From contig JASJDR010000007.1 of the NCBI GenBank assembly GCA_030065615.1, forward strand, positions 1-64,000: DNA of 64,000 nt, given 5' to 3'. The notes under the pieces are model-generated. The model saw only the letters and a list, made by a program, of their open reading frames with translations, ran no database searches and was not told where the DNA came from. The translations under genes and the position numbers were made by a program. The stretch is from Xenococcus sp. MO_188.B8. Its GTDB lineage: Bacteria; Cyanobacteriota; Cyanobacteriia; Cyanobacteriales; Xenococcaceae. Positions 9,094-18,097 of the stretch are shown piece after piece; position 1 is the stretch's first letter, and every line of letters begins with the position of its first letter.

Positions 9094-9435
9094 ATGAATA
9101 AGATTCTTATTGCTGAAGATGAGTCTCGCATTGCTGCCTTTGTCGAAAAGGGTTTGAGGAGAAACGGTTTTCAAACAGCGATCGCCAAAAATGGCAAACA
9201 AGCTTTACTGATGATGCACAATTATAATTTCGATCTCCTGATCCTCGATCTTGGCCTTCCCATTATAGATGGTTGGACAGTACTAAAAAAATTAAGAGCT
9301 CAAGGAAATCAAATTCCCATCATCGTAGTTAGTGCTTATGAAAGTCCAGAGCAAACCGATGACATAACTAACTATATAACTAAACCTTTTCGCTTTCAAA
9401 ATTTACTTGAACAAATCAAATTTTATCTTCAATAA
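9094..9435 (+). CDS. stand-alone receiver domain, shortened (degenerate OmpR-type regulator)
   Basis: The 113 residues align with the receiver of the next regulator (9863-10537). The acidic pocket ED (8-9), phosphoacceptor Asp52 (LDLGLP), Ser80 and Lys97 (TKPF) are kept. The region between beta4 and beta5, where the paralogue has NKVAGLEGGADDYV, is five residues shorter and different in sequence, and there is no DNA-binding domain. It lies 144 bp after the sensor kinase. It may be a phosphate sink or competitor for the kinase, or a decaying duplicate. No RBS stands out. Confidence 0.75.
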   Translation: MNKILIAEDESRIAAFVEKGLRRNGFQTAIAKNGKQALLMMHNYNFDLLILDLGLPIIDGWTVLKKLRAQGNQIPIIVVSAYESPEQTDDITNYITKPFRFQNLLEQIKFYLQ

Positions 9436-9448
9436 CCATAATTACTTG

Positions 9449-9612
9449 GTTGAATAAGTTTTAAGTGTTAGGGGTTAGGTTAAATTAGTGACAAAAACTA
9501 CGATAACTGCCCTATTGATCAATATTTTACCAGTAATTAGTAGACTAACAATTATCATTAATTATATTATTAATCATGTCGTTAGAAAATTAAATATTCA
9601 ACGATAAATGTT
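9449..9612. repeat. intergenic direct repeat, copy 1
   Basis: About 160 bp that recur at 9634-9800. The last part, from AATTATATTATTAATCATG through CGATAAATGTTTA (about 9559-9611), is identical in both copies, while the first part differs at many positions. It fills the space between the two response regulator genes. A duplicated promoter or leader region is possible but not shown. Confidence 0.8.
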
Positions 9613-9633
9613 TAATAATCAATAAGAAATGTT

Positions 9634-9800
9634 CAATTAGATAAGTTTCAAGTATTAGAGCTTAGTTGAATTAGTTCTAAAACCTATGATAAATGCAATA
9701 TTGATCAATGTTTTCCCAATAATTAGCAGACTAAAAATTATCATGAATTATATTATTAATCATGTCGTTAGAAAATTAAATATTCAACGATAAATGTTTA
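9634..9800. repeat. intergenic direct repeat, copy 2
   Basis: Second copy of the 9449-9612 segment. Its right end is followed by the hairpin module (9814-9855) also seen nested in the MITE at the start of the window, and then by the full-length regulator gene. Confidence 0.8.
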
Positions 9801-9813
9801 ATGTTCAAACTTG

Positions 9814-9862: not shown

Positions 9863-10537
9863 ATGAATAGAATTTTAATTGCTGAAGATGAATCTCGTAT
9901 TGTTTCTTTTCTCGAAAAAGGATTAAAAGCTAACGGATTTGTTACTACCGTAGCTAAGGATGCTGATGAAACACTTAATTTAGTTTTAAGTGCCCATTTC
10001 GATTTACTCCTTCTAGACTTAGGACTCCCCAAACAAGACGGTTTAGAAGTTCTTGAACAGCTAAGGGGTCAAGGTGCAACTTTACCGATTATTATTTTGA
10101 CAGCCAGAGATGATATCAATAATAAAGTTGCCGGATTAGAAGGTGGTGCTGATGATTATGTAACTAAGCCATTTCGCTTTGAAGAATTACTTGCCAGAAT
10201 TCGCTTGCGTCTACGGACATCTCAATTCCAACCCGAGAGTAATAAAGTGACCACTCAATTACAAGTCGGAAATCTAATTCTCGATTTACGTACCAGAAAA
10301 GTAATATTAAGTGGTAAAGAAATTGATTTACCAGCTAAAGAATTTAGTCTTCTAGAAACCTTTATGTCTCACCCCGAACAAGTTATGACGCGAGAACAAC
10401 TCTTAGATCGAGTTTGGGGTTTTGATTACGATCCAGGTTCTAATATTGTTGATGTCTATATAGGTTATCTCAGAAAAAAACTTGGAAGTAAATTGATCAG
10501 AACTGTTAGAGGTGTTGGCTATTGTTTAAATCTTTGA
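9863..10537 (+). CDS. OmpR/PhoB-family response regulator
   Basis: The receiver domain (1-118) has acidic residues at 8-9, phosphoacceptor Asp52 (LDLGLP), Thr80 and Lys102 (TKPF). A winged-helix DNA-binding domain follows (about 130-224), ending with the wing signature RTVRGVGYCL. It is a complete regulator and the probable output of the histidine kinase at 7504-8949. The start ATG 9863 lies just behind a hairpin repeat. Confidence 0.93.
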   Translation: MNRILIAEDESRIVSFLEKGLKANGFVTTVAKDADETLNLVLSAHFDLLLLDLGLPKQDGLEVLEQLRGQGATLPIIILTARDDINNKVAGLEGGADDYVTKPFRFEELLARIRLRLRTSQFQPESNKVTTQLQVGNLILDLRTRKVILSGKEIDLPAKEFSLLETFMSHPEQVMTREQLLDRVWGFDYDPGSNIVDVYIGYLRKKLGSKLIRTVRGVGYCLNL

Positions 10538-10571: not shown

Positions 10572-10796
10572 TTAATAATTTGTTGTCTTGCTTTGCCATA
10601 ATAATGGCAATAGTGAACCTAAAATAATTCCACTTCCTGCACAAATAGCGAGCAATACTCCGACAGGCATTTGAATTGATTGCCAAACCAAAAATTTAAT
10701 TGATACTAACTGAATATTCTGGATCGAAAAAATCGCGATCGCACTTACCCAAAAAGCTAACATCAAAGAACTAATAAAATTAGCAAAAATCTTCAT
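10572..10796 (-). CDS. LapA-domain (DUF1049) small membrane protein
   Basis: The 74 residues form two hydrophobic helices (about 6-26 and 44-66) around a short loop containing QNIQLVSIKFLVW, the typical pattern of the LapA/DUF1049 family, named from the E. coli lipopolysaccharide assembly protein LapA. It lies 32 bp downstream of the second ExbD-like gene on the same strand and is probably co-transcribed. Its function in cyanobacteria is not established. Confidence 0.75.
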   Translation of the reverse strand: MKIFANFISSLMLAFWVSAIAIFSIQNIQLVSIKFLVWQSIQMPVGVLLAICAGSGIILGSLLPLLWQSKTTNY

Positions 10797-10828
10797 GATT
10801 TAAAAACTTATTACTTATTACTTAATCT

Positions 10829-11509
10829 CTACTGCACCCCAATCGACCTTCCTCCAGAACCAAAGACAATCGGATCTTCTGTTTTATGAGGTTCCCATCC
10901 TACTTGAAAACCTTTTCCCCAAGCTTGTTCTCTAGCCGCACGAAAAGAAGCAAAACTATCAGGTCGAACGATAAAAGCGAGATAATCCTGTTTGGGATCT
11001 AATTCTGCTAATACTTGATTAAATTTAGAATCAGCAATTAAAATTTCTTCAGCATTTTCCCCAGGTTTATTGGGAATAGGATCGTAGCGCATCGTAAAGC
11101 TTTGCGCATCAACCATTGTTATGATGTAAAACTCTGTCTGAGTACGAAAATTAATAAGACGATTGGCTCGATTTTGCACACAGGCTCTATAAAATTGCAT
11201 CCCTGATAAGTTAGCCTCAAAATCAGGTTTATTACAAGAAGGTAGATTTCCTACTACCAAATCCATAGCTTCTCCTACCTGTTGATCATTAAGGTAAGTA
11301 ACTTTATTGTCACGAATTTCAAAAAAGCGAGCTGTTTTTTTGGTTTCAGAAGCTAAAGGAGTTTTCACAATAGAGTCAGCTCCCACCGAAATTAGAGAGA
11401 CAAAGAGGCTAATAAACATTAATACCCCGACGGTATTAGTCAAAATATCAAGAAAGGAATCTAAATTTTGACCTGGTTTTGAATTATGGCGTCTTCTTCG
11501 ATTTCTCAT
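10829..11509 (-). CDS. ExbD-like membrane-anchored protein, paralogue 2
   Basis: The 226-residue protein starts with a basic tail (RNRRRRHN) and a single membrane helix preceded by an acidic motif, LDSFLDILTNTVGVLMFISLF, resembling the ExbD/TolR helix with its functional Asp. The rest is periplasmic, with a motif GWEPHK that parallels GYEPID in the upstream paralogue. ATG 11509 overlaps the upstream stop as ATGA. With the ExbB/MotA-like gene it looks like a proton-driven stator unit. Neither a TonB-like nor a Pal-like partner is visible nearby. The assignment to ExbD is by topology and motif only. Confidence 0.65.
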   Translation of the reverse strand: MRNRRRRHNSKPGQNLDSFLDILTNTVGVLMFISLFVSLISVGADSIVKTPLASETKKTARFFEIRDNKVTYLNDQQVGEAMDLVVGNLPSCNKPDFEANLSGMQFYRACVQNRANRLINFRTQTEFYIITMVDAQSFTMRYDPIPNKPGENAEEILIADSKFNQVLAELDPKQDYLAFIVRPDSFASFRAAREQAWGKGFQVGWEPHKTEDPIVFGSGGRSIGVQ

Positions 11510-11982
11510 GGTTTTACTGCTGTTTCTTCTATTTTTAATTGCCAGTTGGCATCAATGGGTTCATAACCAATATCAATTTCTGCTCTTTCTACGAGGTTGC
11601 GCACCAGCTTAAAAGTATCAATACCATTAGATCTTACTGCAACGATTAGGTACTCACGATCGCGATTTTTTTGTATTTCAGCAATTAGTTTGGTGACTGC
11701 TGAATTGGGAGCATTTAAATTTTCTTGGGAAACAAATTCTTCTCCTGGATAAAGAATGACGCCATTAGATCTACATTCAATATAGCGGGGATTTTTGCTT
11801 TTATTAACCCCATTTTCTCCTTCTGTTTTGGCAACAATAGTTACTTCTTGTTGGTTTACCGCTTGAGTTGTCATGATAATAATCATGAGGATAAAGATAC
11901 CAATAGTACAAGTTAAAATATCAAGAAAAGACTCTAAATCTTGAGATGGCTGTGAATTATGGCGTCTTCTTCTTTTTCTCAT
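11506..11982 (-). CDS. ExbD-like membrane-anchored protein, paralogue 1
   Basis: The 158-residue protein shares its start with the next gene: MRKRRRRHNSQPSQDLESFL, then DILTCTIGIFILMIIIM as membrane helix. The periplasmic part ends in IDIGYEPIDANWQLKI. The acidic residue at the start of the helix is where ExbD/TolR carries its proton-path Asp. It overlaps the downstream paralogue by ATGA. Directly upstream is a relic of the C terminus of a third copy, so this locus has a history of tandem duplication. Confidence 0.65.
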   Translation of the reverse strand: MRKRRRRHNSQPSQDLESFLDILTCTIGIFILMIIIMTTQAVNQQEVTIVAKTEGENGVNKSKNPRYIECRSNGVILYPGEEFVSQENLNAPNSAVTKLIAEIQKNRDREYLIVAVRSNGIDTFKLVRNLVERAEIDIGYEPIDANWQLKIEETAVKP

Positions 11983-12060
11983 GGTTTTACTGCTGATTTT
12001 GGGATTTTAAGTTGCCAATTGACATCAATAGGGTTCACGATCAATATCAATAATTAATCT
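11979..12060 (-). pseudogene. C-terminal relic of a third ExbD-like paralogue
   Basis: Read on the minus strand with one surplus T, this segment gives IDIDREP-IDVNWQLKIPKSAVKP and then TGA. It parallels IDIGYEPIDANWQLKIEETAVKP, the end of the gene at 11506-11982. Its stop codon overlaps the start of that gene as ATGA, exactly as the intact pair overlap. The body of the copy is missing. Confidence 0.8.
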
Positions 12061-12090
12061 CTAATTAAAAATTAACTGACAATAAATAAT

Positions 12091-13284
12091 TTAAACAACT
12101 TCTTGCTCATTTTTATTTGGGTAATCAGTTTGAGTTTTAGAATTAATATTTCCATTATTCTTGGCTAGTTTTAAAGTTATTTCTTGAGGAATATTTAGAC
12201 CATCGGAAATAGAAGAATTTTGTTTTTTCATTTCTTCTAAAACCCCTAAAACTGCTTCCATTTGGGAAATAATTACTTGCTGATTTGCTTGTTGTTGTTG
12301 AGCAAAAAATTTCATTAGTTCTTGGCGATCTTTAATGATTTCTTGAGACAATCCTTCCGTTACAGAACTAGTATTGTTGGCGGCAGAGGAGTTATCTGAA
12401 CCAACTGATGTCGGAAAACTTTGATAAATTGCATCTTCAACAGCTTGAGAAATCATATCTTCATTAAGACTGCGATTCTTTTCTCTCAGTCTAGGAAGTA
12501 ATTTATCGTTAATAAAAATATCTATTCCTAGTAGCAAACTAGATTCATAACGCTCTATCAATACCAGAGGAATCATAACTAAAACACTGAGCAATAAAGC
12601 TAACAGAGTAGTGTCAAAAGCTACCGCTAAACCTCCTGTTACCGTACCAATCCCTTCTTTAATCTGTTCAACATCTCCCGCGTCTTGCAAAAAACCCGAA
12701 AAACCGCTAACCGCTTTACTAATACCCACTACCGTACCGATAAAACCTAACAAAGGAATTGCCCAAACTAAAATTCTGGGGACAGAATAAGATGATTCTG
12801 AGGCACTGAGATAAAAAGATGAGTCGTCAAGAGCAAATTCTGTGGCTTTAGCGCGATCTCCAGATTTAATATAAGCATCCAGTACCCGACTACAACGGGT
12901 TGCGATCAAGCTCCCATCTTCTGCTAATCTCTCTTGAAGATTGATCACTTCTGGTGCACCAGGATTTTCTAAAGGAATATGCTCTGCAATCCAAAGTTTT
13001 CCTAAGGAACGATACTCAGGTTTTAATTTCAGAAATTTTAAGACTATCGTGGCAATCACCATTCCTGCTAAAATCATCACCAGGAATTGAGTAAAGCCTC
13101 GTTCGTATAACAGAGTGCCAATGGTAGATTCTTTAAAGGGAATCAAAACTCCATAAACCACTGCTACCATAATAACAGCGATCGCAGAAACTAGTGAAAA
13201 ACTCACTTCTAGTTCTTGGCGTTTAGAACCGCGATGGCGCGACTGACCTTGAAATTTATGATATTTTTGGGTAAGTTTTTTCAT
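12091..13284 (-). CDS. ExbB/TolQ/MotA-family proton channel protein
   Basis: The 397-residue protein has an N-terminal pair of membrane helices (about 28-50 and 66-84), a cytoplasmic stretch, and a pair of long helices (RILVWAIPLLGFIGTVVGISKAV and VAFDTTLLALLLSVLVMIPL) that carry the family hallmark GFIGTVVG and the threonines lining the channel. The C-terminal tail (about 270-397) is hydrophilic and Gln-rich. Two ExbD-like genes follow on the same strand. It is probably the channel half of a proton-driven stator. It is longer than classical ExbB because of the N-terminal helix pair and the tail. The driven partner is unknown. Confidence 0.8.
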   Translation of the reverse strand: MKKLTQKYHKFQGQSRHRGSKRQELEVSFSLVSAIAVIMVAVVYGVLIPFKESTIGTLLYERGFTQFLVMILAGMVIATIVLKFLKLKPEYRSLGKLWIAEHIPLENPGAPEVINLQERLAEDGSLIATRCSRVLDAYIKSGDRAKATEFALDDSSFYLSASESSYSVPRILVWAIPLLGFIGTVVGISKAVSGFSGFLQDAGDVEQIKEGIGTVTGGLAVAFDTTLLALLLSVLVMIPLVLIERYESSLLLGIDIFINDKLLPRLREKNRSLNEDMISQAVEDAIYQSFPTSVGSDNSSAANNTSSVTEGLSQEIIKDRQELMKFFAQQQQANQQVIISQMEAVLGVLEEMKKQNSSISDGLNIPQEITLKLAKNNGNINSKTQTDYPNKNEQEVV

Positions 13285-13723: not shown

Positions 13724-14344
13724 CTACTTATGTACTTCTGTTGCCCGCCCACGCCAAATACCGACTAAAATGCCTTGTAGCTCTAGAGAATTAACATCTA
13801 CTTCAATCGCCTTGTATTTAGCATTAGCCGGCTGAAGAGTTACTTTATTTTCCGATCTATAAAAGCGTTTGAGAATTGTACCTTGTCCTGGAACTTTTGC
13901 CGCTACAATATCACTACTTCGAACTTCGTCTACTGAAGAAACTTCTCGCATGACTACTAAATCTCCCTCAATGATCGAGTCGTCGATCATGCTATCTCCT
14001 GCTACCCTTAGCACATAGTAATTTGATTTTGCCATGAGCTCACTTAAATCTAATCTTTCTTTTACGTCAATAAATGGTTCGACTGACCCTCCATCAGCGA
14101 TCGCGCCTAAAATAGGGAACCCTTTTTTTGGTTGATGTAAAATTCTCATAGTGCGAGCTTTCCCATCTGTCCAGTCAATATACCCCTTGTTACGTAAGCG
14201 CTCAAGCCGACTTTGTATCGGTGCGGGAGAACGTAGATTCATTGCTACCATCATTTGTCGAATAGAAGGAGCATGTTGAGTATCCTGAATATATTCAACT
14301 AACCAATCGTATAATTCTTTCTGGGCTGGGGTTAAACTTTCCAT
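13724..14344 (-). CDS. lexA: LexA-family repressor with altered cleavage site
   Basis: The 206-residue protein has an N-terminal winged-helix domain (1-68, PSIRQMMVAMNLRSPAPIQSRL) and a C-terminal S24 peptidase domain with Ser118 (GDSM) and Lys159 (LKRFYR), the residues of the LexA catalytic dyad. Where self-cleaving LexA has Ala-Ala-Gly, this protein has Ala83-Asp84-Gly85, so the P1 alanine of the usual Ala-Gly bond is replaced. Self-cleavage may be lost or shifted, as proposed for some cyanobacterial LexA proteins that act outside the SOS response. A LexA-box match lies 30 bp upstream of the start, so the gene is probably autoregulated. Confidence 0.92.
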   Translation of the reverse strand: MESLTPAQKELYDWLVEYIQDTQHAPSIRQMMVAMNLRSPAPIQSRLERLRNKGYIDWTDGKARTMRILHQPKKGFPILGAIADGGSVEPFIDVKERLDLSELMAKSNYYVLRVAGDSMIDDSIIEGDLVVMREVSSVDEVRSSDIVAAKVPGQGTILKRFYRSENKVTLQPANAKYKAIEVDVNSLELQGILVGIWRGRATEVHK

Positions 14345-14854: not shown

Positions 14855-15067
14855 ATGGACTTGATAACAACCAATGTCATGGAAATCAAAAATATTAAGG
14901 AAGAAGCACGACGATTAATAGACAACTTGCCTGAAGATTCTACTTGGGATGATTTAATGTATGAGATATATGTCAGACAGGCTGTTGAGTCAGGGTTAAG
15001 TGATAGTGAAGCGGGGAGAGTTTTTTCTGTAGAAGAAGTTAGAGCTAAGTTTGGATTGCAAAAGTGA
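14855..15067 (+). CDS. antitoxin of a RelE/ParE-type toxin-antitoxin pair
   Basis: This 70-residue protein lies directly upstream of a ParE/RelE-family toxin gene and overlaps it by GTGA (15064-15067), the usual arrangement of antitoxin first. The sequence (EIKNIKEEARRLIDNLPEDS, then WDDLMYEIYVRQAVESGLSDSE) is like small acidic antitoxins found beside such toxins in cyanobacteria. ATG 14879 is an alternative start. Because the toxin carries a nonsense codon, this antitoxin may be an orphan. Confidence 0.75.
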   Translation: MDLITTNVMEIKNIKEEARRLIDNLPEDSTWDDLMYEIYVRQAVESGLSDSEAGRVFSVEEVRAKFGLQK

Positions 15068-15357
15068 AAGTTTTTTGGACGGAAACAGCCGTTAATCATT
15101 TATCCTCGATTTATAATTACATTTCTCAGAATTCTCCCCAGTACGCACAACGAATTGTGGAAAGATTGACTCATCGCTCTGAACAAATTGCCAAATTTCC
15201 TCTATTAGGTCGTATTGTTCCAGAATTTGAAACCAAGCAAATTCGCGAAGTTATTGAAGGTTCTTATCGTCTTATTTATTACATTAAACCTGCATAAATT
15301 GATATTATTGCTGTGCTTCATGGTTCTCAGCAAATTAAAGATATAGAAGAAGAATAA
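15064..15357 (+). pseudogene. ParE/RelE-family toxin with in-frame nonsense codon
   Basis: The GTG-started frame encodes MKVFWTETAVNHLSSIYNYI and then RIVERLTHRSEQIAKFPLLG and REVIEGSYRLIYYIKP, the ParE fold. A TAA at 15295-15297 stops it at residue 77. Without a frame change the reading continues IDIIAVLHGSQQIKDIEEE to TAA at 15355-15357, which is exactly the missing last beta strand and tail of the family. A single CAA-to-TAA or GAA-to-TAA change explains this. The truncated protein could be inactive, or retain partial function. Confidence 0.85.
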
Positions 15358-15395: not shown

Positions 15396-15800
15396 GCGAT
15401 CGCATTCTAGAAACACAGTCGAAATACATCGCGGAGTAGTATGGTATTCCAACTCTAGATTAAGACAATTTTCTATAGCGCAATAGTTAATTCTCGAAAA
15501 AAGCGATCGTCACAAAGAAATATGCTTGAAATACATTGCAGAGTAGTATGGTATCCCAACTTCAGATTAAGACAATTAGCTATAGCAACCTAGTTATTCG
15601 GTCAAAAAGCGATCGCATTCTAGAAACACAGTCGAAATACATCGCGGAGTAGTATAGTATTCCAACTCCAGATTAAGACAATTTTCTATAGCGCTATAGT
15701 TATTTCTTGAGAAAATGCGATCGCGTTTTAGAAATATACTTGAAATACATTGTGCAGTAGTACGGTATTTCAACTCAAGGTTAAGACAATTTACTATGCT
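15396..15800. repeat. four tandem 107-bp repeats, each starting with HIP1-like GCGATCG
   Basis: Units start at about 15396, 15503, 15609 and 15717, a period of 106-108 bp. Each runs GCGATCG, then GAAATACAT, GTAGTA-GGTAT, CCAACT, GATTAAGACAATT and TATAG. Units 1 and 3 are most alike. The last unit runs into the 3' end of the caspase-kinase gene, whose stop is at 15794. The units keep three HIP1 octamers intact, and unit 2 has the variant GCGATCGT. Confidence 0.85.
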
Positions 15801-18097
15801 GTTCCCAGTTCACCCCCACAAGCATCACAAAATTCACTATCAGCTGGATTTTCATCAAAGCCACAGGTCGGACAAGTAATCTTTGAATTAGGGATAGGTG
15901 ATTGAACTGGTGCAGATGCCATAGCAGTTGTTCCCAGTTCACTACCACAAGCCTCGCAAAATTCACTATCAGCTGGATTTTCATCAAAGCCACAGGTTGG
16001 ACACAATCCCTTACATGACAAGCTTTTAATTAGCTCATTTACGGACTGAAAACGTTCATCCATCGTCATTTTCATTCCGGTTAATATTGTGCGCTCCATT
16101 TCTACGCTAATTGAAGGAACTATTTGCCTGGGGGATACTAGAGGATCGTTATGGAGTCTATCTGGAGCAGAAATAGGTAATTGACCTGTTAATAACTCGT
16201 ACATAGAGGCACATAAAGCATAAATATCTAGAGTGGGTCCTTTTCTCCCTGTGCGGCCATATTGTTCTATGGGAGCATAACCAGGAGTCAAAATTTGAGT
16301 CATTCTTTGGGTTTTGTTAGGAGTAAATTTCCTCGCATTACCAAAATCGATTAATACAGCTCTATCTTTTGGAGTGATAATAATGTTGTCTGGTTTGATA
16401 TCTCGATGTAATAAATTATTGCTATGGATGACTTTTAAAGCTTGGGCGATTTCCAAGAAATATTTTTTGACACGGGATTCTGGTAAAGGACCTTCTTCCC
16501 TCAACAAATCATAGAGAGACTTGCCAGGCAAGAATTCCATAACTATGTAAACAGTATTATTTGCTTGAAACCACTCGTAAACTTTGACGATAGAGGGATG
16601 TGAACATTGGTAAGTATATTTTGCCTCCTGAAAAACCCGCTTGACTTGCTCGTTTCTACTTCGAGTAGAAATAGAGGATGGCCACAGAATTTGTGTACCT
16701 TGTCTAGTAGCTTTTTCGGGCCAGTGCTCATAAATAGCTACTGGAGAAGCATATTCTAGTTCAGTTCCTCTGTAGGTAATACCGAATCCTCCTTCACCTA
16801 TAGTCTTATCAATTCTATATTGAGTTTTTTGACTTGTCAGCACAGTACCTACAGGTAGGTGATAAGATTTAATCTGCTCGATAATTAGGGGAGAGCCACA
16901 AGCAAGACAGTTGAGGTTATCTTTAGGATTCTGTGTTAGGCACTTAGGACATTGAATAGAGTTTAGAGTCAGATTATCATGTGGTATTTTGTCGAGCTTC
17001 TTTGTATCTAGTTCCTCCAGTGATGAATGCTGATTTTTTATTCGTTGTTGGATTGCTTCTACATCCTTATCCCTCAAACCCAGATATTTTTGCAAGCGTT
17101 TGATTGCTTTTCTGTCCCTATTTCTCAAAGGATTGTACTGCTCATATGCCTGATTCAACACCTTTTCATATTCGGTTAGCTTTTCGTGATGTTGACGATA
17201 AGGGGCTAAAACCTCATCTTCAATTTGTTTAGCTTGTTTGCTGTCTAAAACCAACTTCGAACATAAGATATTAAGGCTACGACGATTAATAAATCCGATT
17301 TCCCCCTCGTCTTCCCGGGCAATTTCTTCTACTGCCTTGAGATACTTAAGTGCTGGGTCATCTTGAGGGGAACGGGCTAGATGAATCCGATAACCTTCCT
17401 GGACAGGATAAAACTGGGGATTCATAGCAGGATAGGCTTCTTGAACCTTGTCACGGGCATATCGATGCAACTCATCAGCACTAATGCGACCATCACTATC
17501 TAAATCTGCTGCCCCAGTTTTAATTCCTTCTACTAAATACTGAGTGTAAATAGATAGTCCTCCTTGCTGTTCAAAGGAAGATTGCACCGAGGTAGAAGAA
17601 GTGAAAATTGCTCGTCCTTTACCGCCTAATTCTGCCTCAATATCTACCGTTCCTTCGTCTTTGGCAGTTAATCCTTTTGCTATCGCTCCACTGTAACAAC
17701 AGTCAAGAATAATCACTTCATAATCTGAATTGCTATCTGTCATTTGCTTTTGTAGATAGCTAGCTGCAACTGCTGTGGGTTGTACTACCAAGCCTTTTGC
17801 ACTCTTGCATGTTTCAGGGGTAGCTAAATATAAATTACGATTTTGGTCTTTGACCCCATGACCAGAAAAGTAAAACAGCACTAAATCCTCTGGGCTACGT
17901 TCAGCAAATAAATCATAAATAGCTATTCTCAATTTCTGAGTATTGGGGTTAAGCAAAACCTTAACATCATTAAATCCACCTATTTCGGGATGTTGCAAAA
18001 CTTCCTTCATCGCTTGGGCATCTTGGACAGTACTAGATAAGATCGGCAATCCTAGCTTATATTCACTAATTCCTATCAGTAGTGCGACCTTAACCAC
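15794..18097 (-). CDS. caspase-like protease / protein kinase / zinc-ribbon fusion
   Basis: Domains in order: a C14 caspase-like domain (1-240) with His80 (FSGHG) and Cys134 (DCCYSG); within it an EF-hand-like loop DLDSDGRISADE (199-210); an alpha-helical linker (255-355); a zinc ribbon (383-401, CPKC/CLAC); a Ser/Thr kinase domain (about 430-695) with GEGGFG, HRDIKPDN (564-571) and DFG (584-586); and two near-identical zinc ribbons (699-718, 742-761). The residue equivalent to the ATP-binding lysine is Tyr456 (VAIYEHWPE instead of VAIKE). It follows the EACC1-like gene by 8 bp. A conflict or cell-death role is inferred from the family. Confidence 0.9.
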   Translation of the reverse strand: MVKVALLIGISEYKLGLPILSSTVQDAQAMKEVLQHPEIGGFNDVKVLLNPNTQKLRIAIYDLFAERSPEDLVLFYFSGHGVKDQNRNLYLATPETCKSAKGLVVQPTAVAASYLQKQMTDSNSDYEVIILDCCYSGAIAKGLTAKDEGTVDIEAELGGKGRAIFTSSTSVQSSFEQQGGLSIYTQYLVEGIKTGAADLDSDGRISADELHRYARDKVQEAYPAMNPQFYPVQEGYRIHLARSPQDDPALKYLKAVEEIAREDEGEIGFINRRSLNILCSKLVLDSKQAKQIEDEVLAPYRQHHEKLTEYEKVLNQAYEQYNPLRNRDRKAIKRLQKYLGLRDKDVEAIQQRIKNQHSSLEELDTKKLDKIPHDNLTLNSIQCPKCLTQNPKDNLNCLACGSPLIIEQIKSYHLPVGTVLTSQKTQYRIDKTIGEGGFGITYRGTELEYASPVAIYEHWPEKATRQGTQILWPSSISTRSRNEQVKRVFQEAKYTYQCSHPSIVKVYEWFQANNTVYIVMEFLPGKSLYDLLREEGPLPESRVKKYFLEIAQALKVIHSNNLLHRDIKPDNIIITPKDRAVLIDFGNARKFTPNKTQRMTQILTPGYAPIEQYGRTGRKGPTLDIYALCASMYELLTGQLPISAPDRLHNDPLVSPRQIVPSISVEMERTILTGMKMTMDERFQSVNELIKSLSCKGLCPTCGFDENPADSEFCEACGSELGTTAMASAPVQSPIPNSKITCPTCGFDENPADSEFCDACGGELGTA

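Follow-up and report, generated by a model that had tools for sequence, protein, structure and literature searches.

The channel gene and its two membrane-anchored partners

The window analyzed here is a stretch of 64,000 nucleotides (contig JASJDR010000007.1, positions 1 to 64,000) from the 8.26-Mb genome of the cyanobacterium Xenococcus sp. MO_188.B8. On its minus strand lie, in this order, three genes that we call A, B, and C and a gene for a LapA-domain protein. Gene A (12091-13284) encodes a channel subunit of the MotA/TolQ/ExbB family of 397 residues, as judged from its open reading frame (ORF), its Pfam match, and its hydrophobicity. Gene B (11506-11982) encodes an ExbD/TolR-like protein of 158 residues with a single helix, and its homologue C (10829-11509) a protein of 226 residues with an SFLD helix motif and a weakly ExbD-like soluble domain; the two genes overlap in an ATGA at 11506-11509. 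The LapA-domain membrane protein (10572-10796; 74 residues; Pfam LapA_dom, E 7e-10) is a lineage-specific neighbor. Together A, B, and C look like a conserved motor made of three parts, broadly of a known kind but with an unusual axle that is asymmetric in most cases, and the copy in the window is a rearranged one, in which the first 24 or so codons of B are derived from C. Much of this was noticed in a first-pass annotation made from the letters alone: the channel signature GFIGTVVG, two paralogous proteins sharing an Arg-rich start and an FLDIL motif, the ATGA overlap, and a LapA-like gene were all described there, and each is borne out.

The product of A passes the curated cutoff of the Pfam family MotA_ExbB (PF01618; 27.4 bits, cutoff 22.9) and has four hydrophobic segments, at residues 23-55, 62-89, 167-194, and 212-252. 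The GFIGTVVG signature occupies residues 180-187 (12724-12747, minus strand). The cytoplasmic tail of this copy is shortened, extending 157 residues past the Pro-Leu of the last segment against a median of 236 in its relatives. In 58 of 65 distinct A sequences the last 70 residues contain the pattern [KQAL]PR.[ILV]; no match is found in the window, in Xenococcus PCC 7305, or at the loci L014/L043 (which reads EPRRI), L069, L075, L091, and L092.

Profile comparison by HHalign establishes B and C as homologues (probability 99.2, E 3e-19). Cyanobacterial ExbD aligns with B over the helix alone, and weakly (probability 14.6, E 0.0018), with the Ser column of B falling on the ExbD Asp in this weak alignment; between C and cyanobacterial ExbD there is no credible profile alignment (probability 0.1). 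AlphaFold2 models built from 30 B and 31 C sequences reached a mean predicted local distance difference test (pLDDT) of 83.8 with a predicted template modeling score (pTM) of 0.65 for B, and 79.4 with 0.68 for C. When the B model was compared by Foldseek with 350,542 PDB chains, the top three matches were TolR 5by4, ExbD 8p9r, and ExbD 8vgd (probability 0.99-1.00, E 0.006-0.009, none reaching E 0.001). By VIA the B model matches TolR 5by4 with a Z of 7.5 (84 residues, 3.3 Å), and the top row for the C model among 997 chains is ExbD 8pek with a Z of 6.0 (83 residues, 3.5 Å), scores of a size that unrelated folds can also reach; that TolR and ExbD come first in the lists counts for more than the Z values themselves. 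As modeled, the soluble domain of B has its clear best match in TolR/ExbD, and that of C points weakly to the same match. A CARF-like fold was also considered for C, on account of Cam1 and ring-nuclease rows among its matches, but these have Foldseek E values above 0.5 and rank below ExbD in VIA; because C is moreover expected to be periplasmic, this fold was not taken up. Neither is the trio the iron-uptake ExbBD, for which the same genome has two ordinary ExbB loci and two ordinary ExbD loci elsewhere.

The helix acid site and the chimeric B of the window

In relatives the usual helix reads ELFPFLS[IV]LACTIG in B and NLDSFLD[IV]LTNTVG in C. The site that is Asp in C is Ser or Ala in 59 of the 65 distinct B strings (PFLS in 58, PFLA in one); five strings read SFLD and one has lost its start, some genomes being counted twice in the helix strings through alternative start choices. 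For C, SFLD is found in 60 of 60 distinct strings, an invariance that is partly ascertained, DSFLD having been one of the two search patterns; the B figure is free of that. The usual trio thus pairs one helix bearing an Asp with one that lacks it. The five SFLD-type B strings come from four genomes, namely the window, Pleurocapsales LEGE 06147, G011, and G012. FLDIL, which the first-pass annotation had described as a motif shared by the two proteins, is not a mark of the family, whose B proteins have PFLS or PFLA, but apparently the product of a local crossover. In a separate type of trio (L148, from genome G099, and also L135) the Asp is missing from the B helix as well as from the C helix, and this is a possible non-conducting or differently powered variant.

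The traces of that crossover are visible in the window. B and C, which share the Arg-rich start and FLDIL, have 16 identical codons among their first 24 and none among the next 16. The first 84 nucleotides of B are 81% identical to C and 61% identical to the B of Xenococcus PCC 7305; the remainder of B is 78% identical to the latter. A direct repeat of 142 nucleotides (11418-11559 and 11891-12032, 80% identical) extends at 11557-11577 and 12031-12051. Its source copy, at 11418-11577, comprises the start of C and the end of B, and its second copy, at 11891-12051 and about 80% identical, comprises the start of B and a fossil; likewise, the sequence 5' of B copies the sequence 5' of C. The fossil (11983-12051, minus strand, upstream of B) aligns locally with a score of 42, whereas 1000 shuffles gave 18 at most. 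The third fossil copy reported earlier does exist as a remnant, but it is not a whole gene and consists only of the 3' end of B and the B/C junction. Counting along the proteins places the codons for Asp21 on the minus strand at 11447-11449 in C, where this residue is presumed to carry the ion, and at 11920-11922 in B, which presumably gained it with the C-derived start.

These alignments are most simply explained if B and C underwent an unequal crossover within their helix-coding starts. Its product would have had the order A, B, C/B chimera, C; the old B and the end of A would then have been lost, and such an event would account for the fossil as well. In the tree of A, the window groups next to Xenococcus PCC 7305, which has a canonical B, and the remaining acid-type B helices fall in a separate clade (L018, L013, L016), so that a C-type helix has been swapped into B at least twice. 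The repeated swap suggests, without proving, that the B and C helices occupy equivalent places. The fossil fragment, the chimeric B, and the lost end of the A tail could also mean that the copy in the window is a decaying remnant lacking function. We regard this as quite improbable: all three ORFs are open, and the ratios of nonsynonymous to synonymous substitution (dN/dS) against Xenococcus PCC 7305 are 0.13 for both A and B and 0.07 for C (dS about 1, NG86 method), though these values mostly record time before the rearrangement.

Joint inheritance and the motor reading

The trio was surveyed in 291 cyanobacterial genomes drawn evenly across the phylum, with E <= 0.001 for C and a limit of our own choosing, E <= 1e-30, for A. 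A and B each occur in 22 genomes and C in 23; the same 22 genomes have all three, and the additional C (in genome G070) is a remnant of 48 residues with a stop. In 9 of the 22 genomes C lies apart from A and B. Five of these keep A and B together with C elsewhere (G128, G138, G164, G206, and G099, the last a draft with parts on two contigs), and in the other four (G108, G198, G266, and G299) all three genes are apart. B has PFLS in eight of these nine unlinked genomes, G099 being the exception; two families contribute eight of the nine, which are hence not independent. As far as genome comparison can tell, the strongest indication that A works with both kinds of axle protein is that the whole set is retained even when unlinked.

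Within the window's own family, 26 of 27 genomes have a strong A, with B after it in 26 of 26 fetched stretches and C present in 24 of the 26 (unseen in L024 and L027); none of the PF02472 (ExbD) hits listed for the 27 genomes lies at an A-B-C locus. Three genomes of this family (G026 at L031, G025 at L032, and G010 at L033) have, in addition to the main trio, a second and shorter one with an A of 371-375 residues. In Thermosynechococcus, C (L083 and L084, 9995-10654) has neither A nor B adjoining, and the ORF next to it reads like hisF. Two bins from outside the cyanobacteria, Verrucomicrobiales L091 and Pirellulaceae L092, carry an A-like gene with two genes behind it, one whose product has the PFLS or PFLA type of helix and one whose product has SFLD. 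A viral origin of the trio was dismissed: none of 49 pattern matches for C in viral contigs was confirmed, and the phage collection held no relative of A.

On this evidence we consider it somewhat probable that A, B, and C form an ion-driven 5:2 motor whose axle, made of B and C, is asymmetric. Five copies of A would make up a wheel in the inner membrane, with a cytoplasmic tail, and one B and one C the axle; the N-terminal helices of both would sit inside the A pore and their ExbD/TolR-like domains on the periplasmic side. Ordinarily the ionizable Asp would be on C alone, with Ser in B; ions would pass through C Asp21, and A would rotate relative to the axle. The window departs from this in that B has taken on the start of the C helix, so that both presumed axle helices have an Asp, and in that the tail of A is short. 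The first-pass annotation had proposed a proton-driven stator with a heterodimeric ExbD-like pair. The stator part is favored by the score of A above the MotA_ExbB cutoff, by TolR/ExbD as the best match of the B model, and by ExbD as the top VIA match for C. The heterodimer is favored indirectly, by the same 22 of 291 genomes, by the Asp usually on one helix, and by at least two helix replacements.

Several points weigh against this reading. PF02472 detects neither B nor C, which have no Pfam match at E 10, and Foldseek gives no match for the C model at E <= 0.001; the VIA scores and the constancy of the C helix carry the reservations already stated. Two divergent genomes from outside the string set depart from the Asp pattern: G099 has all three genes with Asp in neither helix, and G200 has Asn in B (SFLN) and Asp in C (LMDIL). 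The A of the window is without the conserved tail end, and this copy could therefore be impaired. Finally, the co-occurrence would also fit with C acting outside the A pore, or with two homodimeric motors, A5B2 and A5C2, sharing the wheel A while B and C are coupled to different periplasmic partners. The soluble domains of B and C do differ (158 versus 226 residues), and for the AglRQS motor discussed below the choice between hetero- and homodimer is left open in the available passages of PMC9389320. Yet A5B2 would be without an Asp in most relatives, and none of the 291 genomes has A with B only or with an intact C only; we therefore think a pair of homodimeric motors unlikely.

Several known systems resemble an asymmetric motor of this kind in part. 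ExbB-ExbD and TolQ-TolR likewise combine a channel gene of the MotA/TolQ/ExbB family with downstream genes for single-helix proteins that bear ExbD/TolR-like domains, whereas the trio has two unlike axle genes, usually with Asp in one, and PF02472 is silent on both. The AglRQS gliding motor of Myxococcus xanthus has, in the passages available, one MotA-like and two TolR-like proteins (PMC9389320, PMC3169522), and the trio likewise has one channel gene and two TolR-like genes. As described there, AglQ and AglS both have the conserved Asp (PMC9389320) and both match Pfam ExbD/TolR (PMC3169522). In contrast, the usual B of the trio lacks the Asp, which the chimeric B of the window has, and neither B nor C matches Pfam ExbD. 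Zorya ZorAB is alike in having a channel with a cytoplasmic extension, and the trio gives weak hits to ZorA and ZorB profiles, but A scores 25.2 bits against the curated ZorA profile, far below its cutoff of 100, and the trio has two unlike axle proteins with ExbD/TolR-like domains. According to the passages available (PMC11890865), Zorya does not function without the ZorA tail and the ZorB Asp.

The system described in section 8 of PMC12204202 has one wheel gene and two unlike axle genes, as does the trio, and the two bins L091 and L092 show the PFLS/PFLA and SFLD pair. By contrast, no fixed transducer gene was found beside the cyanobacterial trios, and the Asp/Ser asymmetry goes without mention in that section. 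The terms "cyanobacter" and "heterodimer" are absent from the main text of the MotAB survey PMC12505986, and the available passages of PMC11658791 and PMC8597729 hold no description of the trio. Among the titles and beginnings of abstracts searched, which leave most subscription journals uncovered, none concerns a cyanobacterial trio or an Asp/Ser split.

Neighboring genes and a possible link to defense

A LapA-domain gene follows C within 1.3 kb in 15 of 54 loci, the window included (3 of 57 loci were excluded as having too little sequence). All LapA-positive loci are Xenococcaceae or other pleurocapsalean-type, and the gene is found at 0 of the other 39. Because LapA lies next door, the output of the motor in the window's lineage is probably envelope work. 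A gene of a histidine-kinase cluster lies 5' of A in nine loci, mostly Crocosphaera, Pfam-scanned in L046 only. A fixed fourth gene was sought and none seen, LapA being lineage-specific and the histidine-kinase-cluster gene present in nine loci only. In line with the first-pass annotation, Pfam found no TonB, Pal, or OmpA domain among the 10 window proteins scanned, and PADLOC found no Zorya partner (ZorC, ZorD, or ZorE) among 10 scanned window proteins; most ORFs of the 64 kb were outside these scans, and a Ton or Tol-Pal gene may lie farther away. The description of the locus as an orphan stands insofar as no fixed output gene was found, but LapA is kept in this lineage and copies in Nostocaceae keep company with a type III CRISPR gene.

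That company is seen at the Nostocaceae-type loci L034 (which is on a plasmid), L058, L064, and L065. At all four, A is immediately preceded on its own strand, at a distance of 78-127 bp, by cmr genes and a CARF-HEPN-type gene. The CRISPR type at the Nostocaceae loci is III-B, PADLOC having been run on the proteins of L034 and L058 only. Among 217 Nostocaceae genomes, the CARF-HEPN gene occurs in 33 and C in 9, and it is present in 8 of the 9 genomes with C versus 25 of the 208 without (Fisher p 1e-6, uncorrected for shared ancestry). It adjoins the trio in G168, G319, G351, and G097; in G091 the two are at opposite ends of one contig, and in G174 on different contigs. One genome, G072, has C and no CARF-HEPN gene. 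Two broken cases were also observed: in G070 (C53:5599-6257) C and the CARF-HEPN gene adjoin each other as remnants, and in G193 (C1:3835033-3836680) A is broken and the trio is distant from the CARF-HEPN gene. On a Microcystis plasmid the trio is preceded by a IIG restriction-type gene, a CD-NTase, a SLATT effector, and an HKD-Snf2 helicase.

The link to defense is suggestive, and immunity may have enlisted those copies of the motor that lie in type III CRISPR operons. One could go further and suppose that the motor is everywhere the membrane part of anti-phage immunity, Zorya-like, with the cytoplasmic tail signaling to an unlinked effector. The CARF-HEPN and cmr genes adjoining A, the excess of 8/9 over 25/208, the CD-NTase, SLATT, and restriction genes of the Microcystis plasmid, the patchy distribution (22 of 291), and the weak ZorA/ZorB hits all speak for this. 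However, the trio is near-fixed in the window's family (26 of 27 genomes by a strong A), the scanned window proteins include no defense partner, most loci outside the Nostocaceae are without an identified defense gene, and the Nostocaceae link may be one inherited arrangement; a universal role in immunity is therefore doubtful.

Three other features of the window deserve mention. A second local duplication is seen in a direct repeat of 144 nucleotides (9479-9622 and 9665-9808, 88% identical), which sits between a short (9094-9435) and a longer (9863-10537) response-regulator-like ORF. At 15794-18097 Pfam identifies a fusion of a caspase domain with a Ser/Thr kinase and zinc ribbons, whose best PADLOC matches are kinase-bearing models (e.g., mads_6 and PD-T4-6) over the kinase part. 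Near lexA (13724-14344) a small two-gene module (14855-15297) ends in a ParE-type toxin (Pfam ParE_toxin, E 1e-13).

The number of acids and the dimeric axle of 5:2 motors have been studied mostly with two identical axle subunits. A family that usually combines a helix with the acid and one free of it, whose three genes are inherited jointly even when unlinked, and in which at least two helix conversions have occurred makes the question of acid number directly testable. The asymmetric motor and the defense operons can be joined in a single proposal, which we put forward tentatively and hold to be rather unlikely: a rotary motor of A5:B1:C1, half-charged with an acid on one helix, would have been recruited as the membrane arm, powered by the proton motive force, of cyclic-oligonucleotide defense operons. 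If so, it would move fewer ions per turn than MotAB or ExbBD, the operons concerned would be those of type III-B CRISPR with CARF-HEPN in Nostocaceae and the CD-NTase/SLATT island of the Microcystis plasmid, and the lineages with a C helix swapped into B would be natural two-acid mutants. Should the link to CARF-HEPN and CD-NTase loci prove functional, the membrane effectors of cyclic-oligonucleotide immunity would gain a motor driven by the proton motive force.

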